Assembly: GCA_009746045.1 (NCBI GenBank)
Contig: RPFO01000380.1
Span: forward strand, 1,334,520 to 1,398,519
DNA: 64,000 nucleotides
Direction of reading: 5' to 3'
Source of the DNA: Mesostigma viride
Lineage: Eukaryota; Streptophyta; Mesostigmatophyceae; Mesostigmatales; Mesostigmataceae
Positions within the stretch are counted from its first letter, which is position 1; every line of letters starts with the position of its first letter. The notes beneath the pieces were generated by a model that worked only from the letters and a program-made list of their open reading frames with translations, was not told the DNA's origin and did no database searches. Positions 22,175-57,337 of the stretch are shown here, one piece after another. A program made the position numbers and the translations under genes.

Positions 22175-22696
22175 AGTTAATGCACTCGTGCAAATGGATG
22201 CGAACGTGTGTTGGATTATGCAATGGCTGGCATAATATCAACCCATGCAAGCTTGCCAAGCTGGATTGCATGGGCACGTAGGTTAGGGTAACCTAGCTAT
22301 CCTGTACTAGTGCTAACCAATGAGGTGCTGGCTCCGTCCAGCTAGATCTACTCCAGCTAGGACTGATACGATGCCCACAGGCAACGACTGCCTAACAGCA
22401 CTACGTGGACGGTCCTGGACCTCCCCTAGGACCTCCGTACAGGACTAGCACTGCAACCACCTTGTGGTCTGCATCACAGCTCATAAACCCTACCACGTGA
22501 ATACCCACGTGCGTGTGCACTACATATCTCAGTGCTAATATCTAGCACCCACGTGCCCATCCTGGCACGTGCGGATCTAAATCCTAGTAGAGATATGTCC
22601 AGTGTACTACACTACCGTCCATGTCCGTATCCCACTTGGGAGACGGGGACAACGCCACGTGTACTGATAGTCTAGGCCTGAAGCCCTAGAATAACT
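22175..22696 (-). repeat. Copia-1 3' LTR (522 bp)
   Basis: It matches 29398-29919 base for base except AACGCC versus ACCGCC near 22651/29874. Termini are AGTTAATG and AATAACT (5-bp inverted AGTTA/TAACT). Confidence 0.93.
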
Positions 22697-23072
22697 CCCA
22701 TTATTACTTTTCTTTGGGGAGTGAGGGGAAGACTCTTCCCACAACCCACTCATATGCCAACCACTACTGATAAGCAAGGTTCCCCACAGGGACAACCAGG
22801 ACACTGAAAGAGATGCATTTATAAAAGCGCCCATAGCTCCTCCGTGTTGGATACAACATCCCCACTGGTTGGGTGCCTGTGTTGGGAAAAACCATTGCCA
22901 GAAAAATATGACCACACGTTTTATTGACAAAGAACAAGCCATCAATAAAGGAGGACCCTTCTGACCTCAAGCTTTAATGACGCAAAGAGAGTCTTACGGG
23001 TGGGACACTTCAGACCCTGCCACCCCATGACCACCCTCCTATCTGGTGCTAATAGCCCTAGGCTGAGGCACT
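22697..23072 (-). other. Copia-1 3' untranslated region
   Basis: It lies between the RNase H stop and the 3' LTR. The minus-strand sequence beside the LTR (AAAGAAAAGTAATAATGGG) is a purine-rich candidate for the plus-strand primer. No gene is seen. Confidence 0.55.
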
Positions 23073-23558
23073 TCACCCTCTGCCATTGTATGGGTTCATC
23101 AGCGTGTATAGGACTCTGTACTGAGGCCCTGCAGCCTGTGGCACTTTTGTGAGTGCATCTGCTGCATTGTCAGGGTCTCGGATGTGAGTCTTGGACTCCA
23201 GATAGGTACACTCCTGCTTGAGGACAATCCAGTCCAAATCGGTGTGCACAGCCAAGGGGTTGTCCAGGAAAGAGAGAAGGGATTGACTGTCAGTCAGCAG
23301 ATGGGATTTGACACCAGCATAACTACCAGCCTGATGCTGCAACCACACCAGCAGATGGTTCAAGTACCTGGCATGTAACACAGCAGATACCACAGCACGG
23401 CATTCAGCTACATTGCTGCTGACTGCCTTGCGCTTGTGGAGTCTGCTGAACCAGGAAACCAAAGATTGCTTGCCAGTGGGGTTAGACAACATAAAGAGAC
23501 CTGCCTCTCTGGCTTGTACCTTAGTGACTACCCGTGACTCCATGGAACTGTCCATCAT
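23073..23558 (-). CDS. Copia-1 RNase H domain
   Basis: The Ty1/copia RNase H residues are visible in order: Asp in MMDSSMES, Glu in NVAECRAVVSA, Asp in LLTDSQSLL and Asp in DNAADALTK. HTDLDWIVLKQE lies between the last two. It degrades the RNA strand of the RNA:DNA hybrid. It is out of frame with the RT tail (23555-23785), so one indel near 23560 separates them. Copia-2 has the same domain at 42885-43409. Confidence 0.85.
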   Translation of the reverse strand: MMDSSMESRVVTKVQAREAGLFMLSNPTGKQSLVSWFSRLHKRKAVSSNVAECRAVVSAVLHARYLNHLLVWLQHQAGSYAGVKSHLLTDSQSLLSFLDNPLAVHTDLDWIVLKQECTYLESKTHIRDPDNAADALTKVPQAAGPQYRVLYTLMNPYNGRG

Positions 23559-24210
23559 GCATGTGATGTGATGGGTTGGAACAGATCCAAGGCATGAAGA
23601 ATAAGGGGAGGGCCATCATGTAACACCTGTTTAATAGCCCTAGACCCTACCTCCATGAGGACATCATCATCCACTCTGCTGACCACGGCCAGATGAGGAG
23701 CACAAGTGGCACACAGCCAACCTAGCTTACCCCTAATAGTGGGACAGAGATCAGGAGTGATGTCAGAGGGAAGAACATCTTGCAAGACATGACATACTCA
23801 GGGGATGCTTTGAGAGAACACACCCACTCCTTCTGCTCCTTAAACAGGTTCAGAATGATGCCACAGAACTTGACAGGATCTTTCCCCAGCTCCAGCTGCT
23901 TGCCTAATTCAAAGCTAGCAGACACTTGAGCAATGAAATCCTCCACAGCTGCCCTGGGACCAGTAATGAGCTGATCATCCCCATGCCACACAAACATCAT
24001 CATACCAGCAGGATGAGGGATGGTGAAGAAACAAGGGTCAATATCATCATACTGGGCCCCCAGCTTCAGGAAGACCTCTTGGGCAGACAGCCTAAAAATT
24101 TTAGGTGCTGACTGAAGCCCTTCTACCCCCAAGTTAGGCCTTAATGAGGTTCCTTGATGTCCCCAGACCAGACTTTGGGAGTGTTTACCACATAGACTTG
24201 ACCCCTCCAC
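23555..24210 (-). pseudogene. Copia-1 RT, C-terminal part (two frames)
   Basis: NLGVEGLQSAPKIF, DDIDPCFFTIPHPAGMMMFV and WHGDDQLITGPRAAVEDFI (catalytic Asp pair) match copia-2 residue by residue in many places. A frame change near 23780 leads to the RT tail (IRGKLGWLCATCAPHLAVVSR). A single-base deletion near 24150 separates it from the N-terminal half. Confidence 0.88.
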
Positions 24211-25574
24211 ACCTTTTGGGCTATGTCAGGGTTGCCTTTAAGGAAGGCTCGTTTAATGTCAGTGGCTTTACACACGTAGTCCTTACCAGCATTCAGATGG
24301 TGAAGGAAAGTGGCCAACAGGACCTTAAGAGACGTCTGCTGAATACCAGGGGTATACAGTTCAGCCTCTGTTAGCTCAGTGGAGCCCCTGAACTCCGTGA
24401 CACAAGGTCTGGCATGAAAAATGGGAGGTGTCCCATCTGCCTGGGGTTTATGCTTGCAGACAAACTTCAGTCTGAGCTTTCTGGCCCCTTGTGGCAGTGC
24501 CTCAATCGGTGTTACAGGTGGTACCTGGGACTTGCTACGTGGATCAGGACAAACCCATTCCTCTCTAGCCCTGTTAAAGGCTTCCATCCATTTCAGAAAA
24601 CCAATCTGCGTTTGACAGTCTTTGACCACATCATCATAGGACAAGGGAGACATGGACGCTATGTCCCATCTACCAAGCCCAAACGCAGAGGGGTGTAGCT
24701 TCTGAGAATGAATGAGGGAATCAACACAGGGTTCCTGACCTGGGAGGTATTTTATGTTGACAGCATTGATGGCTGCTTCCAGGCCATCACTGATCTGTGT
24801 TAAAGGAATTTTAAAATGGTCCAGGGTGACCTGCCCCACCCCAGTCACACTCAACCTCCCAGCTGAGATGACTACTCCAGGGTATGAGACAAATGGTTCC
24901 CCCAGCAGTGCATTCCCCTTGTAGCCCTCTACTACCTGGAAGGGAGTGGGCACACCCAGAATGGGAATTAGCACTTGGCCTTTGACTGCCATTTTTGTTT
25001 TGCCTGAAAAATCTGACACTCTAGCCCAGGGCGAGCGTTGCAGACTTAGGCCAGATACAGCTTGTGCACTGATGATGCTCACCTGTGCCTGTGTGTCTAC
25101 TGCCAGAATACTGGGATCCTGGTTAGATTCACCCACAGCATTGACTTGTGCTGCACCTGCTGCCATTTGTGCCTTGGCAGTGTGTGCTCTATGTAGAGCT
25201 TTTAGAGCCTCAGCAAATTTATTCCTGGGGACAACAGGATCTGCTGCTACTTGTGGCTGTTCCTGAGATGAGGGAGGAGCGACCTGCTGCTCATCCAGTG
25301 CACGTTCCTCCTGCCCAGTTGGACCATTGGGCTGTGGTGGGGCTGCACCACTGAGGAACACAGGAGCGTCTATGGTTGTGTTGCTTGCATCAGCTATGTC
25401 CCTGGCCAGTTCACTGGGTGAGACCAACCCACCAGACTGAGGCTCTGAATCCATGTCCAAGAATTCTACCCCTGACACGTCTGCCAAAGGAGGGTAATAA
25501 AGCTTCAGTCTATGCTTGCCAACCATTCGCTCTCTGTGATGCTGAATAGTCACCGTGTCACCTGTTTCTGACAA
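24141..25574 (-). CDS. Copia-1 integrase tail + aspartic protease + RT N-terminal half
   Basis: The first 50 codons (VTIQHHRERMVGKHRLKLYY) match the integrase C-terminus of copia-2. Pro/Ser-rich sequence follows, then a retropepsin-like domain: LAVDTQAQVSIIS (active-site Asp near 25100, DTQA in place of DTGA), a WARVSDFSG strand, and LLGEPFVSYPGVVIS near 24890 (the second conserved strand pair). RT starts with KLRLKFVCKHKP, FHARPCVTEFRG, LYTPGIQQTSLKVLLA and DYVCKATDIKRAFLKG (motif A Asp). Integrase tail and protease share one uninterrupted frame here, which makes the IN-PR order hard to explain by rearranged fragments. Confidence 0.88.
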   Translation of the reverse strand: MSETGDTVTIQHHRERMVGKHRLKLYYPPLADVSGVEFLDMDSEPQSGGLVSPSELARDIADASNTTIDAPVFLSGAAPPQPNGPTGQEERALDEQQVAPPSSQEQPQVAADPVVPRNKFAEALKALHRAHTAKAQMAAGAAQVNAVGESNQDPSILAVDTQAQVSIISAQAVSGLSLQRSPWARVSDFSGKTKMAVKGQVLIPILGVPTPFQVVEGYKGNALLGEPFVSYPGVVISAGRLSVTGVGQVTLDHFKIPLTQISDGLEAAINAVNIKYLPGQEPCVDSLIHSQKLHPSAFGLGRWDIASMSPLSYDDVVKDCQTQIGFLKWMEAFNRAREEWVCPDPRSKSQVPPVTPIEALPQGARKLRLKFVCKHKPQADGTPPIFHARPCVTEFRGSTELTEAELYTPGIQQTSLKVLLATFLHHLNAGKDYVCKATDIKRAFLKGNPDIAQKVWRGQVYVVNTPKVWSGDIKEPH

Positions 25575-25837
25575 CCTGATGATTTCAGCTGGACCATGCC
25601 ATCTACCAGAGTGGGCTTTGTTCCCTTCCCCTCCCTATAGTAGAGTACCTGATCCCCCACTTCAAACACAGGCCTGGCATTACTTTTATCCTTTTTTGCC
25701 AGCAACTTGGCCAAGTGTTGCCTTTGCGTGTTGTAGTGGTCTAGTACCTCCTGAGAGTAGCTACCTGATTGCAGGCCAATTGGTGTGATTTCACCAAAAG
25801 GAGAAGACATGAGGGTTTGGTGTTCAGAGTTCTGCAC
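25550..25837 (-). pseudogene. Copia-1 integrase C-terminal segment (shifted frame)
   Basis: GEITPIGLQSGSYSQEVLDH and ARPVFEVGDQVLYYREGKG correspond to GEVIPAGLQAGVYPPEVIAL and SRPVFQKGDQVLYYKENSFG of copia-2. The last, the GDQVLYY strand, resembles the GKGY-type C-terminal domain. It bridges the integrase core (25741-26937) and the protease-RT frame; single-base indels lie at both joins. Confidence 0.8.
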
Positions 25838-26937
25838 ACCTCAGCTGCCCACGCTGTCCTATCAGCATAGCTCCCAGACTCTGCTGTCCTGGACTCATTT
25901 TTCTTTATGAGGTCCCTGATAGCACGCATGGTACGTTCAATCATCCCCTGGCGTTCATGATCTTGAGCCCCAGCAATGTCTATCTTGGGCAGATCAGGAT
26001 AATCTTGTATCCACGTGAACTGCTGATCCAGCATTAGTTTTTCCTGAGGATGATACCGTGCTAGTGCAATCAGCAGGGCTCTGTGCAGTTGTTCATTGGC
26101 CATGCCTGGCAAGGGTTCTATCACCACAAACCTAGACCAGGCATCTTTTAGGACCAAGTAATACACCGTGTCCTTCACCAGGTGTATCACATCCCCTACT
26201 AGCTTTCCTCTAGCCAGTGGTGGGGTGGCCACATGCCATCTCTTGGGTTTAGGTGCATGCAGTTGGCACGCTTCACAGTGCTTCCTGACATGCCTGCACA
26301 TCTGTTCCAGGTCACGGCCATCAATTTTATTGGCCAGCCTTTCTGCCACTGCCTCATGCCCCATTGCCTTGTGTAGCTGCTGGGCTAACCTGGCATAGGA
26401 TATAACCTTATCTGCTGCTGCATCTAAGGAGGCTATAGTGGGATCTTGGGCCACCTGTGCTAACGTCATGTCATAAGCCAGGTCCCAATCCACGTCCTCA
26501 CTGTCAGGCAATACAGAGCAAATAGAGGGTACACGGCCATTAAGAAACCAGGGTACAGGAGACTTACAGTCGTCCTGAGTGCTGGCTTGTTTTGGGGTGC
26601 GCCCCGTCGAGGCTCCCTTCCTGGGCTTGTTGCAGCGTCCCCCTGCAGGTAACGGGTGGCGGGGCTCCCAGCAACCTGGGCACACATCCACATCAGATCC
26701 AAGTTCGGGTTTGCCCTTCCAGCAATCATCCCTCTCATGCCCCTTGCATGAGCACCTGGTGCAGTACAGGGTGGAGTCGTGAGGCTTACCTTTTTGACTA
26801 GGCCCCTGAGAGGGCCCTGCCTTACTGCCTGTGTTCCCCTTTCCCCCCTTGTCTGATTTCCCCTGCTGCTTGGATGACCCCCCTGCCTTCTTACCTTGCT
26901 GGGGACCCTTGAACACCGCCTTGACCTGAGCTACCAC
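25741..26937 (-). CDS. Copia-1 nucleocapsid knuckle + integrase
   Basis: CTRCSCKGHERDDC (CX2CX4HX4C) is the nucleocapsid knuckle. It is followed by a second Cys/His group, CPGCWEPRHPLPAGGRC, also conserved in copia-2. The integrase zinc domain is LHKAMGHEAVAERL with MCRHVRKHCEACQ (HHCC). The core has GDVIHLVKD, LKDAWSRFVVIEPL (first Asp), LMLDQQFTW (second Asp) and HERQGMIERTMRAI (Glu). No protease motif occurs between knuckle and integrase, where Ty1/copia elements have one. It would insert the cDNA, giving the 5-bp TSD. Confidence 0.88.
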   Translation of the reverse strand: MVAQVKAVFKGPQQGKKAGGSSKQQGKSDKGGKGNTGSKAGPSQGPSQKGKPHDSTLYCTRCSCKGHERDDCWKGKPELGSDVDVCPGCWEPRHPLPAGGRCNKPRKGASTGRTPKQASTQDDCKSPVPWFLNGRVPSICSVLPDSEDVDWDLAYDMTLAQVAQDPTIASLDAAADKVISYARLAQQLHKAMGHEAVAERLANKIDGRDLEQMCRHVRKHCEACQLHAPKPKRWHVATPPLARGKLVGDVIHLVKDTVYYLVLKDAWSRFVVIEPLPGMANEQLHRALLIALARYHPQEKLMLDQQFTWIQDYPDLPKIDIAGAQDHERQGMIERTMRAIRDLIKKNESRTAESGSYADRTAWAAEVCRTLNTKPSCLLLLVKSHQLACNQVATLRRY

Positions 26938-27540
26938 CTCCTTGATGAGCTTCTTCCTGCTAGGACCTGCACCGTCCTGACTACCCCCCCTTGGACTTTG
27001 TTAACCTTGGGTTCCTTGACAGTGGAGAAGGGTTCTAGGCTCTGCTGAATGAACAACATGGCCCCCCTAAAATCATCCCACTTGTCTTTAAGGCCAGCCA
27101 GCAGAACTGTTGGTGTTCTTGTCTAACTCGGCTTTGGTGAGCCACTGATGGATCAGGTACTTAGAGTTGAGCTTCTTCAACTCTCGTCCCTGTCTATGTA
27201 CAGGACATACTGTTTGTTGTCCGTACGTAGTCAGACTTGTTGACTTTGTATGAAGCCAACCATGTGAACCCCTTGAGAGCCTGCAGGTGTTCCCCCTTGG
27301 TCAACAGCCCTTTTAGGTCTGCTATGAATTCTGTGAAGATTTGCACCTCATCTGCCCCAGGCGTGCTGCCCTCCTCTCATACATCTGCACCATTTGTTTT
27401 ATGCTAGGTGCAGATTGGTGGATCGTGTTAGACACCCTAAGAGCAGGAAACCAATCACGGATATTATCATGGGACCATGAGTGTTCTATCTTGAAAAGAA
27501 ACTCAAGTGCATCCTCCTGCACAAATCCCTCAGCTAGACC
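26938..27540 (-). pseudogene. Copia-1 Gag capsid-like region (frameshifted)
   Basis: Minus-strand pieces such as EFLFKIEHSWSHDNIRDWFPAL and SAPSIKQMVQMYERRA (27322-27522) align with the copia-2 Gag stretch (FVFALEYGMEGLNLRHQF, SSPAIRALIQTYQERT). Further small frames down to 26940 carry the remainder. Several indels break it. Confidence 0.65.
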
Positions 27541-27657
27541 TGGGAAGGTAATCCTATCTTCCCTACGGGATGCATCAAACCTGGGTCGCTGTGGTACAGC
27601 GACAGTCGCTTGTGGTTGAGGTTGCTGCTGCTGCTGCTGCTGCTGCGGTTGCTGTTG

Positions 27658-27697
<40 letters not shown>

Positions 27698-28091
27698 GCT
27701 GCTGATGCTGTGGCTGCTGCTGCTGCTGGGTTGTCGCTCCAGCGTTGCTGCCGCCCGCCATACCCCCGGTGCTTGCTGGTGCCCCTCCCCCTGGTGCTCC
27801 CCCGTCCTTCCCCTCGTCACCATCCTCCTCTGGATGCGACCGCTGGGGCGTAGACGATGGTCCACACCCCTCCTGCCACTTTCCTTGGCGGACCCGCTTG
27901 GCGGCCCTCAGCAGTTGCTCGATTGCCTCTGCTGCCCGCGCCCGCTTGGTCGGGTTGGCCTCCGCTGCGTCCAGCTCCTGGTGGAGTAGTGCAGCGATGC
28001 GGTCCAGCTCCAGGTCCGTGTCGGTCTGCATGGTGTGTTTGGGTGTGGGGTGGGGGGTGGGGTGTGTCTGCGCCAGCACGAACACGCTCAC
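27534..28091 (-). CDS. Copia-1 Gag middle segment with polyserine/polyglutamine run
   Basis: MQTDTDLELDRIAALLHQEL opens a helical, basic region (RAAKRVRQGKWQ). An acidic stretch and a CAG/AGC repeat (27622-27735) follow, giving about 25 Ser/Asn or Gln residues depending on frame. Similar homopolymeric runs (poly-Asn) occupy the same place in copia-2 Gag. Confidence 0.6.
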
Positions 28092-28097
28092 GCGCGT

Positions 28098-29354
28098 TTA
28101 ACAAGGCCGTTCCTCGCTGGGCCCTTGCTGGCTGTGGGGCACGCATGAAGTCCATACCGCGTCCTCCGGCAGCGGCTCATGTGGCGCCAGACCACGCTCA
28201 AACCGGATTGCGTCTCCGAATTCTCCCTGCAGAGCCCAGGTCCTGGCCGCCTCCTGATACCTGCGCAGAGCCCGCTCCTCCTTGCGCATGCGCCTGTCTA
28301 AGGCACGAGCATTCCTCCTGCTCTTCCTTGCCACCGAGCCTCCTGCTCACGCCTCGCCGGGCCCACCATTGTTGCCAGTGTCGCCTCTGACCTCTTCATC
28401 GCCGCGTCCAGCCTCGCCTGGTGACGCCGGGTCTTCTCTGCTGCGTCGTGCGCCTTCGCACGGAGTCGCTTCATCTCCCGATGCTGCGCCTCCCTGCTGC
28501 GCGCTCCCTGGCCAGACTGTTCTCCGCCATGGACCGCACCATTGCCCTCTTGGCCTTCCGCTGGCAATGCCTGGCGTACTCTATCTTGGCCAGACGCTCT
28601 GCCTCCACCATGGCCGGGTCCATCAAAACCAGCTCCTCTCCCGCGCTCCTGGCTGCATTCCACCGACGAGTCGGTCTCCTGCAGCACATCTCCAGCCATG
28701 CGCCTGAAGGAGCGCGCTGTGCGCCTGTGCGCAAAGGTGTAAGCTCGTTCTTCTTGCGGAGAACGTATGGGGGCGCCTCTCGCGCGCCTGTCGGCCCCGC
28801 GCGCAGCCCGCCCTCGCCACTCGATCCCTCTCCAGCTGCCGCTCCGCGAGCTCCCGGGCTATTCTGTCAATCTCAGTCTCCGCCCGCAGCTGAGCCTCGC
28901 GCTGAGCCTCCAGCTCGCGCTGCTGCTCCAGCTCCTTGCGAGCTGGGCCTCCTGCCGAATGCGCTCTGCCTCTCGGCGGAGCAGCTCCTCGCGTTTCGCC
29001 TTGTCCTCCGGCAGCTCGAGGTCCACGAGGTCCTCGTCCTCGTCGTAGCCGTCTGACGGGATGTCCCCCACTATCGGCACCACCCTCCCCGGCCCCGTAA
29101 CCAGCTCGGGTGCCGTGGGCTGCCCTCCGCCGGTGGTGCGTTGGGACGCCATACATTGTACAGCAGCGGCCTTGCCGCCAACTGATCCAGGAACCGCGGG
29201 TCCTCGTCCGAAGACGAGCGACCACTGCCGGCATCGCTGCCAGCGTGATCATCCCTCCCCTGCCGGCCCCGCACTGCCGCCCGGTAGTCCAAATCTCGGA
29301 CGATGGGGACAGGCTTGACTCCGAAGAGCCCTCACGATCAGAAACGTTCGACAT
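28098..29354 (-). pseudogene. Copia-1 Gag N-terminal coiled-coil region (broken)
   Basis: The gag start is ATG 29354 (MSNVSDREGSSESS), 43 nt after the 5' LTR. Spread over three frames are long charged helices (RREAERIRQEAQLA, RKELEQQRELEAQREAQLRA, KRLRAKAHDAAEKTRRHQAR), i.e. a coiled coil of several hundred residues. Copia-2 Gag has comparable sequence (ERRARQRDREVRREAAFRLA). Frequent frame changes may be real or assembly indels. Confidence 0.6.
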
Positions 29355-29397
29355 TTTGAATGATAAAGATGAAAACTGTGAGAGTTTTATAAATGCA

Positions 29398-29919
29398 AGT
29401 TAATGCACTCGTGCAAATGGATGCGAACGTGTGTTGGATTATGCAATGGCTGGCATAATATCAACCCATGCAAGCTTGCCAAGCTGGATTGCATGGGCAC
29501 GTAGGTTAGGGTAACCTAGCTATCCTGTACTAGTGCTAACCAATGAGGTGCTGGCTCCGTCCAGCTAGATCTACTCCAGCTAGGACTGATACGATGCCCA
29601 CAGGCAACGACTGCCTAACAGCACTACGTGGACGGTCCTGGACCTCCCCTAGGACCTCCGTACAGGACTAGCACTGCAACCACCTTGTGGTCTGCATCAC
29701 AGCTCATAAACCCTACCACGTGAATACCCACGTGCGTGTGCACTACATATCTCAGTGCTAATATCTAGCACCCACGTGCCCATCCTGGCACGTGCGGATC
29801 TAAATCCTAGTAGAGATATGTCCAGTGTACTACACTACCGTCCATGTCCGTATCCCACTTGGGAGACGGGGACACCGCCACGTGTACTGATAGTCTAGGC
29901 CTGAAGCCCTAGAATAACT
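29398..29919 (-). repeat. Copia-1 5' LTR (522 bp)
   Basis: It is the partner of 22175-22696. The internal sequence next to it reads TGCATTTATAAAACTC on the minus strand, which is not the TGG-type primer-binding site expected for a tRNA 3' end. Confidence 0.93.
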
Positions 29920-29924
29920 GTAAT

Positions 29925-30531: not shown

Positions 30532-30535
30532 CTCA

Positions 30536-40311: not shown

Positions 40312-40784
40312 AGTTAGATTGCGGTGGGATATATTGCTTGAGAACACTGAAGGCTGTGAGCAATGAATTGCTTGGTTCATTAGAAAATAGGTTTACCCTT
40401 TATCAACGTTCCTCTCACCGGCTGCGCCGCCAGTGACCGTTGGGTGCAGACCGTTGGCCCGAGGCCACACGATGACAGGTAGCAGTCTAGTCACTGCATC
40501 GTGCGATCACAGATCAATGCACGCTGCAGTACGGTCCCTATCTAGGATACTCTAGTACCGTCCAATGACAGGACACTACGTATACTGGGTACTGACATCT
40601 GTCACGTACCTCAGTACCCAAAGTACCTATCTAGGGAAACGTATGCGACTCGACTAGCATTCCTATCTGCATAGCCCACGTGGTATTTATATTCACATAC
40701 CAACGTAGGTTTACAAGGCTTATTCATACGTTGTATTCACAATGCCTTTGAGACTTAGTCTACAGCAAAGCATGGAGACTAACT
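40312..40784 (-). repeat. Copia-2 3' LTR (473 bp)
   Basis: I see no difference from 56865-57337, implying very recent insertion. The sequence inside (ATAATAAAACAATACTGG on the minus strand) is the candidate polypurine tract. Confidence 0.93.
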
Positions 40785-42884: not shown

Positions 42885-43409
42885 TCAAACACTGACTCTG
42901 ATATCATAGGGGTTCATGTTCTGAAAGAGGAGCTGGTACTGTTGGCCAGCAGCATCCCGCAGCTTCGTGAGAGCGTCTGCTGGGTTGTCCTCATCATCCA
43001 CATGAGTCCAGCTGGAAAAATAGGTGGCCTCCTGTTTGAGGATCACCCAATCCAAGTCAGTGTGGACAGCAGCAGAGACAGATTTCTTGGTTAGAAAACT
43101 GATCACAGATTGGCTGTCAGTATAGAGATGTGAGATGACATTGCATGTGCTGCCTGCCTGGGTTTGTAGCCAGGTGAGCATGTGCTGCAGGGAACGAGCA
43201 TGCAATGCAGCAGACACCACAGCACGACATTCAGCTGAGTTGCTGCTGCCAGGTTTTCTGCGGTGTAGCCTGCTGTACCAGGAAGTGAGGGACATGTAAT
43301 CTGACCTGTTGGTGAGAAAAAACAGCCCTGATTCCCGTGCCCCCATCTGATTGATTGTTCTGCTCTCCATGGAGCTGTCCATGACACTGTGTATGTGGAT
43401 GTCTTCCAT
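42885..43409 (-). CDS. Copia-2 RNase H domain
   Basis: VMDSSMESRTINQ (Asp), SAECRAVVSAALHAR (Glu), HLYTDSQSVISFL (Asp) and DNPADALTKL (Asp) give the Ty1/copia RNase H tetrad. It is close to copia-1 in length and order. It is out of frame with RT because of a C7/G7 homopolymer at 43432-43438; the protein sense (PPLILHGLNLMEDIH) runs through it. Confidence 0.88.
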   Translation of the reverse strand: MEDIHIHSVMDSSMESRTINQMGARESGLFFLTNRSDYMSLTSWYSRLHRRKPGSSNSAECRAVVSAALHARSLQHMLTWLQTQAGSTCNVISHLYTDSQSVISFLTKKSVSAAVHTDLDWVILKQEATYFSSWTHVDDEDNPADALTKLRDAAGQQYQLLFQNMNPYDIRVSV

Positions 43410-43414
43410 CAGAT

Positions 43415-45139
43415 TCAGGCCATGGAGGATGAGGGGGGGCAGTCATGGATCAACTTCCTGATGTGACTGCATTTGATTTTGACTAGAACATCATGGGTGA
43501 CCCTGCTGATGACAGCTAAGGGAGCCCCACAGATGGCTGACCACCACCCCAGTTTGCCCTGAACAGTGGCACACATGTGTAAGGGGAGGCAGGTGTGATG
43601 CAGCAGATCTAGACAATCTTGAATATATTCTGCAGGAGGAGAGAGAGAGCAGACCCATTGATCTGGCTGCCTGTGCAGCTGCAACATGATGCCACAGAAC
43701 TGGATGGGGGTTGTGCTCAATTCCACCTGTTTGCCAATCTCATATGATTCCTGGACCTGCTGAATAAATTTTTCCACCTCAGCTCTAGGCCCACAAATGA
43801 GTTGGTCATCTCCATGCCACACAAAGAACAGCAGTCCAGAGGGGGTGGGTACAACAAAAAAGCATGGGTCCAGGTCATCATACGTGGCCTTGAGCTTTTT
43901 GAATACTTCCTCTGCTGAGTCTCTGAAAATTTTTGGGGCACTGACAAGCCCTTCCACCCCAATGTTGATGATAAGGTGGGGCTCATCAATATAAGGTTTC
44001 CACACAGCTGGGGTGTCTACCACGTACACCTTCCCTTTCCACACAGATTCAGCCTTTTCTGGGTCCCCCCTGAGGAAGGCCCTTTTAATATCAGTGGCTT
44101 TGCAGACATAGTCTTGGCCTGCATTGAGGTTGTGGAGGAATAGGGAGAGCATGATCCTGAGTGAGGTTTGTTGCAGCCCAGGTGTGTATGTTTCCCCTTT
44201 TGGCAGTGTGGATGTCCCCTTTAATTCTGTGACACATGGTCTGGCATGGAAGATTGGGGAGCCCACTTTTTGTGGTTTTTGTTTGAGAACAAATTTTAAT
44301 CTGAGCTTTTTGGCTCCCTCTGGCACGTCCCATGAAGGGGTGACAGGCGGTTTGTATTGAGGGTTTTTGGGGTTGGGCAGGACCCATTCCTGCCTGGCTT
44401 GGTGGACAATGGCCATCAGCCACTTGGTAAACCCTTTTTGTGTTTTGCATTCTTGTATGACGTGGGAGATTTGGTGGGGTGAGTGCATGGCTATGTCCCA
44501 CTTACCCAGCCCAAAGGCTGAGGGATGGAGGAACTGGCTGTGCACTAACTTGTCCAGATCAGGGATCTCCCCTGGTGCATACTGAGTGTTGACTGCCTTG
44601 ATGACAGCATCCATACCAGGGACAATACTGGAGAGAGGGATTTTAAAGTGGTCCAGAGGAACTGCACCCACCCCTGTGACACTGAGCTCATTAGCTGAGA
44701 TAAGCACCCCAGGATAGGATACAAAAGGTTCCCCCAACAAGGTGTTACCAGAGTACCCCTCCACCACCTGGAAGGGTGTCTGAATACCAAGTATAGGGAG
44801 CATCACTTGTCCCACTACATCCAGTGAGCTTTGGCCTGAGAAATCCTGCACCCGTGCCCAAAATGAAGGTGCAATCTCAAGACCAGGGATGGCTTGTGCA
44901 CTGATCACACTGACCTGTGCCTGAGTGTCTATTGCCAGGGTCCAGGGGTCCTGACTAGTGCACACAGCTGAGACTTTTGCCAACCCTGCGGCCACAGCAG
45001 CTTGTTGCTTATGTGACCTGTGTAGTGCTTGCAAGGCGACTGCCAATTTGACCTCAGAGCGGGAGGTTTGGCAGACAGGTTCGTGCCTTGGGGCTGAGCT
45101 AATGCTTCCAACCCAGCTACCTCGTGCCTGGTTAAGCAA
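43415..45139 (-). CDS. Copia-2 aspartic protease + reverse transcriptase
   Basis: One long intact frame. LAIDTQAQVSVIS (active-site Asp near 44930) and LLGEPFVSYPGVLIS form the retropepsin-like domain. RT follows without interruption: KLRLKFVLKQKP, FHARPCVTELKG, DYVCKATDIKRAFLRG (motif A), DDLDPCFFVVPTPSGLLFFV, WHGDDQLICGPRAEV (catalytic pair) and VQGKLGWWSAICGAPLA. Protease and RT are thus one polypeptide, with the integrase frame upstream. It overlaps that frame at 44929-45139, the actual join being a frame change. Confidence 0.9.
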   Translation of the reverse strand: MLNQARGSWVGSISSAPRHEPVCQTSRSEVKLAVALQALHRSHKQQAAVAAGLAKVSAVCTSQDPWTLAIDTQAQVSVISAQAIPGLEIAPSFWARVQDFSGQSSLDVVGQVMLPILGIQTPFQVVEGYSGNTLLGEPFVSYPGVLISANELSVTGVGAVPLDHFKIPLSSIVPGMDAVIKAVNTQYAPGEIPDLDKLVHSQFLHPSAFGLGKWDIAMHSPHQISHVIQECKTQKGFTKWLMAIVHQARQEWVLPNPKNPQYKPPVTPSWDVPEGAKKLRLKFVLKQKPQKVGSPIFHARPCVTELKGTSTLPKGETYTPGLQQTSLRIMLSLFLHNLNAGQDYVCKATDIKRAFLRGDPEKAESVWKGKVYVVDTPAVWKPYIDEPHLIINIGVEGLVSAPKIFRDSAEEVFKKLKATYDDLDPCFFVVPTPSGLLFFVWHGDDQLICGPRAEVEKFIQQVQESYEIGKQVELSTTPIQFCGIMLQLHRQPDQWVCSLSPPAEYIQDCLDLLHHTCLPLHMCATVQGKLGWWSAICGAPLAVISRVTHDVLVKIKCSHIRKLIHDCPPSSSMA

Positions 45140-46566
45140 TCCCCAGGTTGTGAAGTGGGCCTGGCTTCACTGAGGGTGGAAGGGTTCACAGAGGGTGCTG
45201 TGGTGCTGTCAACAGCAGTAATTGGTGGCTCAGAGCTACTGCTGGGCATGCTGGAGTTGCCAGATAGAAGTAGTGAGTCCATGCTTAAAGACTCTTCCCC
45301 AGGCACGTCTGCCATGGGAGAATAATACTTCTTAATTCTATGACAGCTCACCCTGTGACGCTTCCCATTGATATTGTGCTTGACCTCCACGGTCTTGCTG
45401 TTTTTGGTAAATCCACGGATGGTAACTGGACCTAGCCAAGTTCCAACCTTACCAAAGCTGTTTTCCTTGTAATAGAGAACTTGATCACCTTTTTGGAATA
45501 CTGGCCTGGAATGGGTTTTATCTTTTTCTGCCAGTTTTGCTGAGGTTTGTGCACGTGCAGTGTTGTACAGTGCTATCACCTCTGGGGGATATACACCTGC
45601 CTGCAGGCCTGCTGGGATTACTTCACCCCACGTGGCATGCAAGACAGGTCTCATGTTTAGGGTTGTGCACATTTCATGACACCAGAGTGCCCTGTCACAA
45701 TAGACCCCTGAAGTAGCATCCTTGGAAGGATTTTTGGCTAGTAGGGTTTTGACAGATCTGATGGTTCTTTCAATGACCCCCTGACCCTCATGATCTTCCA
45801 GCCCAGCAATCTCTATTGCTTCACACCCTTCCAGGTCAGTCAGACAAGAAAATTGTTGATCAAGCAAAATTCTGTCAACTGGGTAGAATCTGGGTAAAGC
45901 AATCATGAGTGCAACACGTAGCTGCCCTGCAGACATGCCAGGTAGGGGTTCCATTACTGTGAACCTGGACCATGAGTCTTTTAGGATCAGGTAGGGTTGG
46001 ACATCTTTGTTGATGTGCATCACATCCCCCACTATCATGCCCCTATTGGTGGAAGGAGTTGCAGTATGCCATTTTTGAGGTTTGGGGCTATTGAACTGAC
46101 ATTCTTGACAGTGTTGTCTAGCCAGTTTTACTGCATTCCTGAGTTGTTTTCCCATGCTACTACCCCCCAGCCGTCTGGCCAGTTCCTCAGCCACTGTTTC
46201 ATGACCCATGGCTAGGTGCAGCTGATGAGCAAGCTCCTTGATATCTATGGAGTTGTCAACAGTAGGGGTTAGTGCTTTTATGTAAGGTTCCAGTACAGGG
46301 TGCTGGGAGGACAGTAAGGTTGCTGCCTCAAAATCAATTATGCCCTGGCTGCCATCCCCAATGGTAATGAGATCATCATCCTCATGCAGAGTAAACAAGG
46401 TGAGAGAACTCACATTGTTTTTGGTAGCGAGTCCTGTTGCAACGGCTGCCAGGAGGTCCCAGGGGATGACGTGCGTGCCAGCAACCCGGGCAGAGATCCA
46501 CGTTGGCCAGGGAGTCGTTGTTGGGGCAGTTGTCCCGAATATGCCCTCTGGAAGCACCTCAGGCAC
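44929..46566 (-). CDS. Copia-2 integrase
   Basis: LHLAMGHETVAEELARR and RQHCQECQF form the HHCC zinc domain. The catalytic core reads GMIVGDVMHINKD, LKDSWSRFTVMEPL (Asp), RILLDQQFSC (Asp) and HEGQGVIERTIRSV (Glu). The C-terminal domain has GDQVLYYKENSFG and VSCHRIKKYYSPM. Ser/Thr/Pro-rich sequence follows, and the true protein then changes frame into the protease region near 45130. The order IN then PR repeats what is seen in copia-1. Confidence 0.9.
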   Translation of the reverse strand: MPEVLPEGIFGTTAPTTTPWPTWISARVAGTHVIPWDLLAAVATGLATKNNVSSLTLFTLHEDDDLITIGDGSQGIIDFEAATLLSSQHPVLEPYIKALTPTVDNSIDIKELAHQLHLAMGHETVAEELARRLGGSSMGKQLRNAVKLARQHCQECQFNSPKPQKWHTATPSTNRGMIVGDVMHINKDVQPYLILKDSWSRFTVMEPLPGMSAGQLRVALMIALPRFYPVDRILLDQQFSCLTDLEGCEAIEIAGLEDHEGQGVIERTIRSVKTLLAKNPSKDATSGVYCDRALWCHEMCTTLNMRPVLHATWGEVIPAGLQAGVYPPEVIALYNTARAQTSAKLAEKDKTHSRPVFQKGDQVLYYKENSFGKVGTWLGPVTIRGFTKNSKTVEVKHNINGKRHRVSCHRIKKYYSPMADVPGEESLSMDSLLLSGNSSMPSSSSEPPITAVDSTTAPSVNPSTLSEARPTSQPGDCLTRHEVAGLEALAQPQGTNLSAKPPALRSNWQSPCKHYTGHISNKLLWPQGWQKSQLCALVRTPGPWQ

Positions 46567-46708
46567 CGTGGACCAGGGTTTCCAGGTTGGTTGTTGTTGT
46601 TGTTGTTGTTGTTTCCCTGCTGGGACCGGTTCTGGCCCTGCTGGGACCTGTTGTTGTTGTTGTTTTGGCCCTGTTGGGACCTGTTGTTATTGTTGCCCTG
46701 CTGGGACC

Positions 46709-46739
<31 letters not shown>

Positions 46740-48371
46740 GGGGTTGCCATGCAGGGGCACACGGTGCCACGTGTTGCCACGCCCCTGAGAGCCACTGCCC
46801 CCTTGGTGGGAGGACTTGTGGGTCTTGGGTGCCCCCCCTGGCTGGCCTGCCCCTTGCGTTTGTGGCCTTGGACACCCTGGACCTTGGGGTCCTGGGCCTG
46901 GGTTGCCAGTACCCAGGGGGTCCACTGCCTCCTCGATATAGAGCATGGCAGCTCTGAAGTTGTCCCAGAGGGACTTGAGGCCTGTAAGCAGGGTAGCCAG
47001 GACAGAAGGTTGCAAATTAGCTTTTGTTAGCCAGGTGTGGATGAGATACCTTGGTTGGAGCTTGAGAAGCTCAAGGTCTTTCTCAATCATTACCCTGTAT
47101 GTTTTTGCATCCCCAGAGAGGTTATTCTTGTTCACCTTATATGCAGCAAGCCAGTTGAAACGTTCTACTGCTTCCATGTGGTTATTGGTAAGCACTAGCT
47201 GTTTCAGATCAGTGATAAAGGTAGGCCACTGTTCAATGGCTGCTTCAGGTGTCAGGGTGCGTTCCTGATAGGTTTGAATCAATGCTCTAATTGCAGGAGA
47301 TGATTGATGGAATGTGGAGGAGGCCCTGAGAGCCTTAAACTGATGTCTAAGGTTGAGGCCTTCCATCCCATACTCCAGAGCAAAGACAAATTGCTTAGCT
47401 TGTTCAACAGTGTGACCCTCAGGCAAGCCAGCAATATTGATTTTGGATTCCTTTTTATGAGGGTTAAACACACCTGTGAGAGGGGGGTTGGCCCTCAAGA
47501 AGCCGTCGGTTGCCTGTTGGAGGCGGGTGGGATCCAGGTTGATGGTCCCCCGCTCATACCGCGACATCAGGGCGCGCAGGCCCTCGACAGTTTGCAGCTG
47601 GTTAGCTGTTAACTGCTGGTCTTGCAATGAGGCCAGCTGAGCCTGGAGAATGGCGAGCTGTTCCAGGACATCCCCGCTCCTTGGGGGGGCCTCAGCAGGC
47701 TGGTTGGGTGCCCTTGGCACCTCTGCACCTCCCCCCAGGGCCTCCTGGGGTCCTGGCCACCCCCCCTGGTTGGGGAGGGGGCCCCAACCCACAGGGCGAA
47801 CCTGGGGTGGTGGGGGAGGGGGAGGGGGGGTCGTGGTGGCCCGGGGGGAGCCCGGGGGTGTCCGGGTAACCCCACTGGGTCCAGCCCCATCGGTGGAGGG
47901 GCGGGCAGGGGTGTCTGCCTCCGCTCTCCTCTTGGCCTCCTCCCGCATGAGACGCTTCATCTCCTTGCGTACCTCATGCTCCCGGAGGGCTGCCTGAAAG
48001 GCAGCCTCATCCTCGGGTATGTCAGGGAGTGGGTCTCCCATGATCAGAGCAGGCCGGACTGGACAGTCCGCCTCTTTGCCCTTCCTCGCGCCCAGGGCCA
48101 GCAGTCCCTCCTTGTACTGCAAGGGTTGGGGGGGAGAGGGTTTCTTGCTGGTGGTTTCCAGCGGGGGGGCTTCTTCAGCTACCACCCCATGTTTGGCCAA
48201 TATGGCCTCCGTGACCCTGGCTTGGGTTAGGGAGGACATGGTTTTAAAATGTGCTGACCGAGCAAGCTCGGCCAGGTCTTGACTATCCGCATATTGCATG
48301 GGATAGTCAGCGTTTTTGAGGAGGTCACGTAGCCGCTGAGTGGCCTCGCGGTACGCCTCCGCCATCGCCTG
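46410..48371 (-). CDS. Copia-2 Gag, C-terminal two thirds (cut by CACTA B)
   Basis: From the CACTA insertion (MAEAYREATQRLRDLL) the protein is helical. It is then Pro-rich (RPVGWGPLPNQ), followed by a capsid-like region (AKQFVFALEYGMEGLNLRHQF, YRVMIEKDLELLKLQPRYLI). A Gly/Gln-rich tail with long polyasparagine runs (GTT repeats on the plus strand, 46591-46745) comes next. The knuckle begins CLRC here and continues in two other frames (GHIRDNC, CPGCWHARHPLGPPGSRC), so indels lie near 46550 and 46440. Confidence 0.8.
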
Positions 48372-48393
48372 CACTAGGAACTCGGGAATGGTA

Positions 48394-48725
48394 AAAAATA
48401 CCACTTTTACCACTTTTTACCACTTTTTACCACTTTTTACCACTTTTTACCACTTTTTACCACCCACAAGGAGTAAAAAGCAGTAAAAAGCAGTAAAAAG
48501 CAGTAAAAAGCAGTAAAAAGCAGTAAAAAGCAGTAAAAAGCAGTAAAAAATACCACCTTTTACCACTTTTACCACCTAACGGAGGTGGTAAAAGTGGTAA
48601 AAGGTGGAAAATGGTGGTAAAAAGCAGTAAAAAGCAGTAAAAAGTGGTAAAAAGCAGTAAAAGTGGTAAAAAGTGGCTGAAGTGGTAAAAAGAACACCAC
48701 GACGAGCACAAAAGTGGTAAAAAAC
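48394..48725. repeat. Left subterminal repeats of CACTA B
   Basis: Tandem ACTTTTTACC units (48394-48462), then eight GTAAAAAGCA units (48473-48548), then mixed and inverted units to 48725. These are candidate transposase-binding sites. Confidence 0.85.
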
Positions 48726-53003: not shown

Positions 53004-53078
53004 GCTAACCAGTCGCCATCGGGATCACAAATCGAGCCACGCTAGGGCATCTGCGCCAGTGAGACCACTGGCAGCTCA

Positions 53079-53411
53079 CTAATCAACCGTGACCATGAAG
53101 TCCGGCTCAGTCGACATTTCCAGGAACGCATCCAACATAATTTGGCGATAAAACTCAGGAAGCCGGCAGGATGACCAATGAAACTGGACAATGTAGGTAT
53201 CCGTGGAGGAAGGTAAAGGAGACATCACGAAATTTGGCCACGAAGCATGTGTGTCGATGTAAGTGTTCGGCTCGATTCCGGTATCCATGGGTGGGACCGC
53301 CATTTTTCTGGTGCCATCCGCCGCCGTGATAGCCGCTAAGTCCGTTGCAAGTTTGTGTCTGCTCGCCAACGCTTTCGATGTCGTCGATCCCTTTTGATCG
53401 AACGGACATTT
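53079..53411 (-). CDS. Possible 5' exon(s) or duplicate fragment of the CACTA B transposase
   Basis: A frame beginning MSVRSKGIDDIESVGEQTQ (53410, ATG) shifts near 53300 to YIDTHASWPNFVMSPL and ends EPDFMVTVD. The YIDTHASWPNFV stretch resembles FMDTHSSWPAFV of the main transposase exon 2, so it may be a diverged duplicate instead of a 5' exon. Evidence is limited. Confidence 0.4.
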   Translation of the reverse strand, partial: KCPFDQKGSTTSKALASRHKLATDLAAITAADGTRKMAVPPMDTGIEPNTYIDTHASWPNFVMSPLPSSTDTYIVQFHWSSCRLPEFYRQIMLDAFLEMSTEPDFMVTVD

Positions 53412-53828
53412 TCTCAGTCATTGAAATGGTAGATATTACGGTCAGTGTACGGTAGTGTTGGTTAGTCACGGGCTCATTGGTAGAAGTCTACTGAAACGGT
53501 ACAGCCTTAGCTCCTGAGGCCTCTGTACTTGTACCAAGCAGTACGGAGTTTAGCCGATCCGCACGCAGCCGCGCGGGGCGTGCGGGCCCCGCGCGAGGCG
53601 TGCGGTCCGGCCGTTTGTGTAGCTGCCGTTGGTGCCTTTTGGCGAAAGACGTTCAAAAAATTTTTGCGCGGGATGCTGCCAGGTTCGTCGATCTGCTGAA
53701 TCCAACGGCGGACAGAGGCAGGTGCAGTGCGTCATGTATACGTTGGCACCGTCTCCGTTCGCAAAACGGGGGGATTCCGGACTTAGCCAGCCTTGGTCGC
53801 ATGGTGGTGTGCGGTCCGGCCGTTGTAA

Positions 53829-56030
53829 ATGCCGAGAAGGGTTGCAGTGCTACGACCAGCTCACGTGTGCAGTCCTGAGGAGTGGGAGAAATTTGATGCA
53901 AGAGCGTCAGAAGAGGAAAAGCCGAAACAAAACGTCGTTCCCTCCGAATATGTGCGGACCTTAAGACTTCAAATCACGACCTTTGGCCGTGCATACCTCG
54001 TGCAGGGGTATGTCCTCAAAGAGCAGGATGGCGCCATGGTGGATGCTGTCATTAACCGGGTAAAGAAGACCTGCATAAACTTTCTCGAAACATGTGTGGC
54101 TCACGACAACCGTGCAGAGCTGGATAAGTATGAGGCATCCAGCTGGGTGGTAGACCCGACGACTGGTGAGCTCACCGCCCAGAAGCCCAAGGGCTCCAAG
54201 CCCAAAGCCCTAAGTGTTGAAGAATTCGTAAAAAAGGAGCTGAGCCGCTGGCTAAGCAACTCCAGCTTAAAAAAGAGGCAGAGTTTTGCCGAGGACGAGG
54301 ATGATGACGAGAAGGAAAATACCAAAGCGCTAAGCGACGTGACCAACATGCCAAAGGTAATAACGCTATCTTTAGCTACAGGAGTCTGCAAGCTTCTTGG
54401 TTTTTTCTTTCATCGCAGGTCTGCTACTAACCGACTTCCCGAATGTTAACGTCCTTATTCCATGCCCCGCCCTCTGCTTGCAGACAACTCCTGCTGCCAA
54501 GCCGGCGGCAAAGCCGGCGGCCAAGCCGGCGGCCAAGCCGGAGGCCAAGCCGGCGGCCAAGCCGGCGGCCAAGCCGGCGGCCAAGCCGGCGGCCAAGCCG
54601 GAGGTCAAGCCGGAAGTAAAGCCGGAAGTAAAGCCGGAGGTCAAGCCGGAGGCCAACCCTGTGCAGCAGGCCACAGGCGTCCGCGTCCGAGCAGATGAAA
54701 TTCAAAGACTCAGAGCTCGGCTGGCTGCCCTTGAGGAGGAGTTAGAGCAGGAAGTGGAAGGGGACGCGCCTGCACCTGTGGAGGTATCGGATGTGAGGCC
54801 GCCGCCTCCGGTGGCCAAGAAGGTTGTACCGCCGCCCCCTCCCGTTCCCAAGCAGCCTGTCATGCCGCCCCCTCCGGTGGCCAAGAAGGTTGTACCGCCG
54901 CCCCCTCCGGTGCCCAGCAACGCTGTGCAGCCGTCCCCTCCGGTGCCCAACAACACCGTGGAGCCGCCCACTCCGGTGCCCAAGCTGGCCGACCTGCCAA
55001 TGCCGGATGGTCTCCCGCCTGCTCGTGTGCCTGCCATCAAGCCAGATGTCTTCGAGCCCATCACGTCGCGCCCCGCCGTCAACAAGCCGCCCGCCAGCAA
55101 CAAGCCGGCCGCCAGCAAGAAGCCGCCCGCCAGCAAGAAGCCGGCTGCAAAGCGAAAGCTTCCTAGTGGTCCCATGGACTTGGGGCTTGCGCACTATCTG
55201 AGCACCTTACTGCCAACCGCGGTGGTTCAAGAGCGACCGGGCCCTGGTGGTTTCGGAGAAGCACTGCACGGGGCCTTCGTGGCACAAAGGTACAAGTACG
55301 AGCGCGATGGGGCGCGGCCGGCTGCGTATGTTTGGGAGCCTGGCAAAGTGGTGGAGGTGAAGCCGAAGCTCAAGGCCCCTTACGGCACGCGGTTTGTGGA
55401 GCGTGATGGGGGCTCGCAAATGCTGTTTGTTGACTTTGCCACGATGCATTACGGTGACGCCGAGGGCAACGAGAATGCGTGGGTCCTTCTGGGCAACGTC
55501 ACTGACGACGACCTTCGAGGCGCACGTGCGAAATTGAAGGAGAGTTGGGGGCCAGCAGAGGAGAAGGAGGAGGTGTCGGATGAGTATGTACCGGCCAAGC
55601 GAGCGCGGGCGCCACCCAAGGAGAAGGCGTCTGCCGGTGCTCCCTCCGCGCCAGCGATCCCGCCTGCCTCTAGCTCTTCGACCGCAACGGTGTCTGCTGG
55701 TGCTCCCTCCGCGCCAGCGATCCCGCCTGCCTCTAGCTCTCCGGCCGCAACAGCGTCTGCCGGTGCTCCCTCCGCGCCAGCGATCCCGCCTGCCTCTAGC
55801 CCTTCGCCCGCAATGGCGTCTGCCGGTGCTCCCTCCGCGCCAGCGATCCCGCCTGCCTCTAGCTCTTCGACCGCAACGGAGTCTGCCGGTGCTCCCTCCG
55901 CGCCAGCGATCCCGCCTGCCTCTAGCTCTCCGGCCGCAACGGCGTCTGCCGATGCTCCCTCCGCGCCAGATCTCACCGAGGCGGAACTGGAGCTTGCCGC
56001 GCTCAAGGCCATGATGGCACCAGCCAGTGG
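53829..56030 (+). CDS. CACTA B second gene: Lys/Ala/Pro-rich protein of unknown function, two exons
   Basis: Exon 1 is 53829-54356 (ATG; MPRRVAVLRPAHV, then FGRAYLVQGYVLKEQDGAMV, a 170-residue ordered region ending in an acidic patch). Intron 54357-54483 has GTAA...GCAG borders. The frame joins in phase 0 (NMPK then TTPAAKPAAK). Exon 2 has (A/E)AKP repeats resembling a histone H1 tail and several PPPPV segments. A compact domain follows (GGFGEALHGAFVAQRYKYER, APYGTRFVERDGGSQMLFVD, about 55200-55600), then six 21-residue repeats. It reads into copia-2 at about 56030, so the natural C-terminus is missing. Its place, divergent from the transposase, suggests an accessory DNA-binding protein like TNPA of En/Spm; this is inference only. 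Confidence 0.6.
54484..54660 (+). repeat. Coding (GCCAAGCCGGCG)n-type minisatellite
   Basis: Twelve-bp units encoding AAKP/EAKP/EVKP, fourteen or so in tandem. Confidence 0.85.
55627..55968 (+). repeat. 63-bp coding tandem repeat (five and a half units)
   Basis: Units start at 55627, 55690, 55753, 55816, 55879 and 55942, each beginning G(C/T/A)GTCTGC(C/T)G(G/A)TGCTCCCT and encoding SAGAPSAPAIPPASS-type sequence. Confidence 0.9.
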
Positions 56031-56846
56031 GTGGCCAGGCGACGGGCGGCCTCCTCTTCATATTCTTGCCGCTTGGCAGCGAGCCGGAAGGCCGCCTCTC
56101 GACGGACCTCCCGGTCGCGCTGCCTCGCTCGGCGTTCTTCATTAGCCACCAGCGCGGCCTGCTCGACCGCCAGGAGCGCTGGGGTAAGATCGATTGATCT
56201 CAGTCTCCCCATCGGGGAGACTGGCCGTGTCGGAGACCTCATCGTCGGACATGGGTTGTCCGCCGATGGGCTCCACGGGTTTCCGCACCACCCGTGCGAG
56301 CTTAATGCTCTCCATGTCCTTCTTCTTGCGAAGAAGGGACGATGGTCGCCCAAACTGAAGCTCAATGTGGTTGTGTCCCTGGGCGAAAGGGACATTGAGG
56401 TTTGATGTGGCGGGACGAAAGGTAATCGTCCCGTCCGGCGCCACCGACGCCGTCTGTCGGGGCATAAGCTCCCGAATAGTTGGCAGCGAGGGGCCGAACT
56501 GGGGAGCCTCAGTGGGGTTTACCACTGAGGGCTCCGCAGCCATGGCCGCGCCAGCCGTGGTTGCGGCTGGGGCAGCCGCCGGAGTCGAGGGTAAGCCGGC
56601 TCCCCGGGGGGGAGCCGTCTCGGCCTCCGGCCTCTCAGGGGAGGGGGGTAGGTCGGTCGGCTTTGCAGCCGCCGTCCCCTCGTCCTGGCAAACATTGTGA
56701 GTCTTTTTGTTCTTTTTCTTTTTCTTGGAAATGGCCGCATCGCCAGCCGGCTTCTGGTTGTTGTCTTTGGGCATCCGCCTATCCTGCCCATCATCATCCT
56801 CGTTGTAGGTAAGCTTCTTAGCGACATTCTTGTTCGTGATAGCCAT
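56031..56846 (-). pseudogene. Copia-2 Gag N-terminal part
   Basis: The ATG at 56846 has a good context (ACCATGG). It is only 18 nt after the 5' LTR. The N-terminus is basic (KKKKKNKKTH), then Pro/Ala-rich. SNLNVPFAQGHNHIELQFG is the most ordered part. A frame change near 56200 leads to the coiled-coil ERRARQRDREVRREAAFRLA and EEEAARRLA, cut by CACTA B at about 56030 and resuming at 48371 (QAMAEAYREATQRL). Confidence 0.75.
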
Positions 56847-56864
56847 GGTAGCAAATAAAATTCA

Positions 56865-57337
56865 AGTTAGATTGCGGTGGGATATATTGCTTGAGAACAC
56901 TGAAGGCTGTGAGCAATGAATTGCTTGGTTCATTAGAAAATAGGTTTACCCTTTATCAACGTTCCTCTCACCGGCTGCGCCGCCAGTGACCGTTGGGTGC
57001 AGACCGTTGGCCCGAGGCCACACGATGACAGGTAGCAGTCTAGTCACTGCATCGTGCGATCACAGATCAATGCACGCTGCAGTACGGTCCCTATCTAGGA
57101 TACTCTAGTACCGTCCAATGACAGGACACTACGTATACTGGGTACTGACATCTGTCACGTACCTCAGTACCCAAAGTACCTATCTAGGGAAACGTATGCG
57201 ACTCGACTAGCATTCCTATCTGCATAGCCCACGTGGTATTTATATTCACATACCAACGTAGGTTTACAAGGCTTATTCATACGTTGTATTCACAATGCCT
57301 TTGAGACTTAGTCTACAGCAAAGCATGGAGACTAACT
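56865..57337 (-). repeat. Copia-2 5' LTR (473 bp)
   Basis: It is the partner of 40312-40784 with no difference found. The 18 nt between LTR and gag ATG read TGAATTTTATTTGCTACC, leaving no TGG-type primer-binding site. Confidence 0.93.

Follow-up and report, generated by a model that had tools for sequence, protein, structure and literature searches.

Two LTR retrotransposons with the coding order Gag, integrase (IN), DTQA domain, reverse transcriptase (RT) and RNase H (RH) were found on the minus strand of the window, that is, the whole stretch of 64,000 nt analysed here. This Gag-IN-DTQA-RT-RH layout is confirmed in both elements, referred to as copia-1 and copia-2, with the naming of the DTQA domain as protease (PR) staying at the motif level. 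Where integrase stands with respect to protease and RT is a main structural character separating LTR-retroelement families, and the two elements probably represent a pol order not described before, in a mosaic related to copia. With moderate confidence, we regard them as two members of one LTR-retrotransposon lineage with the polyprotein Gag-IN-PR-RT-RH and a copia-type RT (and RNase H, as judged by eye), in which the DTQA domain serves as the protease.

The boundaries of both elements were determined from paired LTRs and exact target site duplications (TSDs), the hallmarks of an LTR retrotransposon (Table 1). The TSD was GTAAT for copia-1 (22170-22174 and 29920-29924) and TGTCC for copia-2 (40307-40311 and 57338-57342), and the LTR pairs differed at 1/522 and 0/473 positions, respectively, bearing out the claim of the sequence-only reading that both elements are bounded by LTRs with TSDs. 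Each copy is a recent insertion, and the lineage is diverged and recently mobile, not one broken copy. The LTRs of both elements end in AGTTA...TAACT (5-bp inverted) instead of TG...CA. By eye, no TGG-type primer binding site (PBS) was seen beside either 5' LTR, and the check for a polypurine tract gave only weak purine tracts in both elements; no tRNA gene for PBS comparison was present in the 64,000-nt window.

Table 1. Features of the two elements and of neighbouring elements in the window
Feature	Position	Strand	Basis or remark
copia-1, LTR retrotransposon	22175-29919	-	paired LTRs and exact 5-bp TSD
copia-1 3' LTR	22175..22696	-	521/522 positions identical to 29398-29919; termini AGTTA...TAACT
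copia-1 RNase H-like ORF	23073..23615	-	58% identical to copia-2 ORF; best Pfam E 0.12, unrelated
copia-1 RT, several frames	23606..24500	-	RVT_2; tblastx blocks to copia-2
copia-1 retropepsin-like domain with DTQA and LLG	24819..25121	-	motif scan, gag-asp_proteas, pairwise alignment
copia-1 integrase C-terminal part and linker, two frames	25200..25813	-	matches copia-2 IN, 51% then 35% identity
copia-1 integrase zinc domain (HX4H, CX2C) and DDE core	25813..26493	-	rve match; motifs by eye
copia-1 CCHC zinc knuckle	26722..26763	-	by eye; shares ORF 27000-25741 with integrase core
copia-1 Gag region, several frames	27021..28194	-	tblastx blocks to copia-2 Gag
copia-1 5' LTR	29398..29919	-	1/522 mismatches to 22175-22696
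copia-2, LTR retrotransposon	40312-57337	-	paired LTRs and exact 5-bp TSD
copia-2 3' LTR	40312..40784	-	0/473 mismatches to 56865-57337; termini AGTTA...TAACT
copia-2 RNase H-like ORF	42885..43442	-	similarity to copia-1 ORF; best Pfam E 0.19, unrelated
copia-2 RT, in ORF 45166-43415	43415..44359	-	RVT_2; HGDD at active site
copia-2 retropepsin-like domain with DTQA and LLG	44651..44953	-	motif scan and alignment; without Pfam match
copia-2 integrase ORF, 585 aa	44929..46686	-	zinc domain, DDE core and Ty3-like C-terminal module by eye
copia-2 Gag ORF, 668 aa stop to stop	46410..48416	-	tblastn match to copia-1
copia-2 5' LTR	56865..57337	-	identical to 40312-40784 over 473 positions
tnp2-type transposase inside copia-2	51451-52230		Pfam E 2.2e-16
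gypsy protease	30536-31177		flanks copia-1
gypsy RT pieces	29830-30555 (runs into copia-1 LTR) and 21608-22108		flank copia-1

The window sequence is eukaryote-like and rich in transposable elements. Copia-1 sits inside a gypsy element, pieces of which flank it on both sides. The length of copia-2, 17 kb, is accounted for by about 8.4 kb between its 5' LTR and its Gag ORF. A block inside copia-2 (48399-56145) includes the tnp2-type transposase, a long plus-strand ORF and, at one end, arrays of a 10-bp TTTTTACCAC-like repeat; none of the 25 pairs listed of 47 made convincing terminal inverted repeats, and the termini of this block were not found. Elsewhere in the window, a 1.3-kb inverted repeat pair was detected at 33401-34675 and 62726-64000 (96.6% identity), a relative at 74% lies within copia-2 (41734-42325), and a 1.6-kb segment with a long ORF occurs twice (4454-6063 and 36721-38326, 99.7% identity). 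An ORF of 1336 aa at 8803-12813 on the plus strand matched RVT_1 (1.4e-12) and carries an N-terminal RING-type finger (zf-RING_2, 1.1e-9), and thus encodes a retroelement-like protein whose finger may be of ubiquitin-ligase type.

Comparison of the two elements by tblastn and tblastx indicated that the coding blocks, Gag, IN core, IN tail, DTQA domain, RT and RNase H, are colinear in both copies. On the minus strand, copia-1 reads knuckle and IN (ORF 27000-25741), IN tail, DTQA domain and start of RT (ORF 25634-24141), RT (24225-23722) and RH (23615-23073), and copia-2 reads Gag (48416-46410), IN (46686-44929), DTQA domain and RT (ORF 45166-43415) and RH (43442-42885). In both copies integrase thus precedes the DTQA domain, as had been proposed from the letters of the sequence. 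Amino-acid identity between the copies was 50% for the IN core, 51% for the next block, 35% for the IN C-terminal block, 68% for the DTQA domain, 57% for the linker after it, 67% and 63% for RT, and 65% for RNase H in the block alignment; the DTQA domain is therefore as conserved as RT. Aligned with each other, the LTRs of copia-1 and copia-2 are near background, with 316 matching positions in 588 columns where 20 shuffles averaged 301, and in most blocks synonymous change is close to saturation or past it. The shared order in copies so diverged, with LTRs near background, indicates descent of this order from a remote common ancestor; divergence of this degree excludes one recent jumble, in agreement with the earlier claim that the elements are not a jumble of fragments. 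The lineage is represented by two copies within one window, in which no third member was seen.

Neither element is a single open frame; the tblastx blocks revealed frame interruptions in both, at different places. In copia-1, one ORF holds the knuckle together with the IN core and a second one the IN tail, the DTQA domain and the beginning of RT, so that the frame said to be common to integrase tail, protease and RT holds as far as this beginning of RT. In copia-2, the IN tail is within the IN ORF and the DTQA domain is in the next ORF. Programmed frameshifting was considered and dropped because the frame changes fall at different places in the two copies. The frame breaks may reflect errors of assembly or decay that set in recently, or the broken copies may have been helped in trans.

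The individual domains were then assigned by profile search and by motif, all Pfam matches of rve, RVT_2 and gag-asp_proteas described here falling below the curated cut-offs. For Gag, tblastn between the copies gave 25.8% identity at E 9.6e-22, a score inflated by repetitive sequence as the low-complexity filter was off in the tblastn and tblastx comparisons; nothing better than E 0.037 was found in Pfam for the copia-2 Gag ORF. A DDE integrase with an rve-type core and zinc domain was recognised by eye in both elements, and by rve in copia-1 only (E 6.2e-5 on the IN piece, 23.6 bits against a cut-off of 32.6; 2.3e-4 on the whole ORF), the copia-2 integrase being without a Pfam match of its own. 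The integrase tail contains GP and the patterns GDQVLYY and HRxKxYY, as judged by eye. The RT of copia-1 matched RVT_2 at E 2.7e-4 on piece 24144-24500 and 0.0039 on the ORF, with nothing in Pfam for the second piece (23782-24135), and that of copia-2 at E 2.9e-6 (27.5 bits against a cut-off of 31.6) and 1.1e-5 on the ORF; no RVT_1 match was obtained in Pfam for either RT. Both copies have HGDD at the RT active site (43415-44359 and 23782-24135), where YVDD is usual in copia. The identity of RNase H was judged by eye from motifs and from position. The HMM searches named in the sequence-only reading as its check thus returned rve for copia-1, RVT_2 for both elements and a weak gag-asp_proteas match for copia-1, with none relevant for RNase H and none for the copia-2 integrase.

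As the order hinges on the DTQA domain, its nature was examined by several approaches. By motif scan of the minus frames, which recovered the gypsy protease as control, DTQA was the sole aspartic-protease-like motif of each element besides the RNase H active-site stretch, in agreement with the earlier statement that no protease motif lies between knuckle and integrase. A two-part clan-AA-like signature, D[TS]x[AS]... followed by LLG..F after 44-72 residues, was found at three places in the six frames of the window, namely both DTQA domains and the gypsy protease, against a shuffled expectation of 0.003 per set (1000 shuffles of 485 segments of at least 60 aa); this signature had been loosened after a stricter form matched the gypsy protease only, making the test partly after the fact. 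The spacing from D to LLG in the DTQA domains is near that of the window's gypsy protease, and LLG is present in both copies by pairwise alignment. The catalytic glycine of DTG/DSG is replaced by Gln in both copies, which accordingly read DTQ in place of the D-[TS]-G of clan AA. For the DTQA domain, dN/dS was 0.16 with dS 1.6 by NG86, and 0.250/1.591 by YN00; of its 101 codons, 37 are identical, 35 differ synonymously and 29 by replacement. These values show that purifying selection acts on the domain. By NG86, which gave dN/dS for 3/8 blocks and left the other five without dS, the ratio was 0.22 for the IN middle and 0.72 for the IN C-terminus, and YN00 put dN above dS in the IN C-terminal block.

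Profile, alignment and structure searches gave less. The gag-asp_proteas profile matched the copia-1 DTQA domain at E 0.0096 for the trimmed piece and 0.075 for the whole ORF, and its D, if no gap precedes it, would fall on the same profile position as that of the gypsy protease; no match was found for the copia-2 domain. Aligned directly with the gypsy protease, the domains did not score significantly: 493/1000 shuffles reached the score of copia-2 and 169/1000 that of copia-1. A two-row DTQA profile against the same protease was equalled by 86/500 shuffles, with 27.5 for the reversed profile against 28.0, and hhalign returned a probability of 0.2 on a percent scale. No PDB sequence matched the DTQA domain at E up to 10, and PDB searches with the element sequences gave nothing or unrelated matches at E 0.17 to 2.1; the element ORFs had no NCBIfam match except unrelated ones (E 0.025-0.057) on the copia-2 RNase H ORF. 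AlphaFold models were of low confidence, with pLDDT 36.8 for the PR domain with two alignment rows and 39.6 for the PR core with rows of the window's gypsy protease added (not independent). These models contain strands, and Foldseek with the former found no retropepsin in the best 50 of 164 matches at E up to 10 (best E 0.38), matches that are uninformative. Taken together, the identification of the DTQA domain as a retropepsin is suggestive only. The motif, its LLG spacing and the copia-1 profile match speak for the name given to it in the sequence-only reading, and the missing copia-2 match and the non-significant gypsy comparison speak against it.

Most likely, the polyprotein is matured by the DTQA domain in the IN-RT linker. 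As the element's protease, this domain would dimerise inside the particle and cut at the Gag/IN, IN/PR and PR/RT junctions, releasing integrase from the side near Gag. Such an element may have arisen from a copia ancestor that gained an ILG-type (Ty3-like) protease between IN and RT and then lost its original one between Gag and IN. This origin appears to be the one most in line with the motifs, and movement of integrase within a PR-RT-RH element would give the identical layout. A further step, which we regard as rather doubtful, is that of a third pol order in a deep lineage of its own, combining copia-type RT and RNase H with a Ty3-type protease, a Ty3-tailed integrase, a working D-T-Q protease and AGTTA...TAACT ends; such a lineage might branch off at superfamily level, close to the copia/gypsy split. 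The main doubt concerns the Gln in the catalytic motif, which may mark either a working variant or a pseudoprotease. The replacement of Gly in both copies would fit a degenerate retropepsin that is kept for structure or dimerisation and is non-catalytic, processing being left to a host protease, to another element in trans or to none, and the broken frames of recently inserted copies would fit help in trans. We consider this reading unlikely, because the motif retains its Asp, Thr and Ala, and LLG is likewise kept, despite differences in 64 of the 101 codons; the codon for Gln does not differ between the copies and thus gives no synonymous evidence either way.

The weak profile support, the lack of a PDB match, the low pLDDT of the structure models and the non-significant similarity to the gypsy protease would also be in line with an unrelated beta-rich linker domain in a lineage that lost its protease. 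However, D[TS]xA..S.I and LLG stand near retropepsin spacing, the signature occurs otherwise only in the window's gypsy protease, and the Pfam protease match places D as in that protease, making an unrelated domain improbable. Scrambling of a normal copia order in this genome, by local rearrangement or by nesting of fragments, would agree with the frame interruptions in both copies and with the roughly 8 kb including a foreign transposase inside copia-2, but can hardly be reconciled with the identical order in two copies that have near-background LTRs, near-saturated synonymous sites and a TSD each; we give it very little credence. If the Gag-IN-PR-RT-RH elements form an established lineage, pol modules can be reordered yet still transpose, and the lineage would offer a naturally occurring aspartic protease whose catalytic motif is changed.

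Relatives of the elements were sought in sequence collections and in the literature. Protein database searches gave no match at E 0.001 for the copia-2 PR-RT ORF among 7998 candidates sharing most words, none at E 0.01 for residues 130-460 of the copia-2 IN ORF among 3203 candidates, and none for the two-row IN alignment among 7995 scored, the last search being probably swamped by poly-Q words. As candidate length was tied to that of the query, these searches were blind to relatives carrying the whole Pol as one long protein. Scans of viral contigs with PR-RT, IN, RH and RT alignments, and of prokaryotic genome contigs with PR-RT and RH, gave pattern matches of which none was confirmed; absence from viral and prokaryotic collections says little about eukaryotes. 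No relatives of the window's gypsy protease were found for a better profile. Among the titles and abstract starts listed from the open-licence PMC literature, none named the order Gag-IN-PR-RT-RH. In its available text, Llorens 2009 (PMC2774666) distinguishes five states of integrase. It may follow PR, as in Gmr1 and in every copia element then known, or follow RNase H; it may be truncated and reversed, as in REM1, or lost; and in PVCV it lies upstream of gag. A place between Gag and PR is not one of the five. Among newer lineages, neither Troyka (PMC12440569) nor the Kuafuorterviruses (PMC11673190) are described with this order in the available parts of those reports. In the large plant survey of Neumann et al. 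2019 (PMC6317226), elements with unexpected domain order were removed as likely wrong predictions, according to its available text, and such order-based filtering may have discarded lineages of this kind.

The two elements share with Ty1/copia (Pseudoviridae) an RT matching RVT_2, below Pfam's curated cut-off, and an integrase upstream of RT. They also have the HX4H integrase zinc domain and the RNase H motifs (both by eye) and the 5-bp TSD that are typical of Ty1/copia. Unlike in Ty1/copia, the protease-like domain comes after IN, so that the order PR-IN-RT-RH does not apply if the DTQA domain is the protease; the published copia order is GAG-PROT-INT-RT-RH in the available text of both PMC6317226 and PMC2774666. 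According to the latter, all but a few copia PRs have LLS at the site where ILG stands in others, and copia INs are without the GPY/F module. In contrast, LLG is present in both copies, and these integrases end in a GP-containing Ty3-like module by eye. The label 'copia-like' given at first suits the RT by Pfam, and RNase H by eye; the LLG motif and, as judged by eye, the integrase C-terminus look unlike copia. As in Ty3/gypsy (Metaviridae), PR lies directly upstream of RT, LLG is of the ILG type and the IN tail resembles GPY/F by eye; unlike in Ty3/gypsy, integrase is upstream instead of after RNase H and the RT matches RVT_2, not RVT_1, so that neither the order PR-RT-RH-IN nor an RVT_1-type RT is present. 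Gmr1-type Ty3/gypsy elements likewise break the integrase position of their family, but the Gmr1 integrase is downstream of PR, copia-like, and here it is upstream of PR. PVCV-type caulimovirus has integrase upstream of protease as well, but upstream of gag and not between Gag and PR, as far as the available text of PMC2774666 describes both. From LLG, the GP-containing IN tail and RVT_2 together, the RT of these elements looks copia-type, and the PR and IN tail look Ty3-type.
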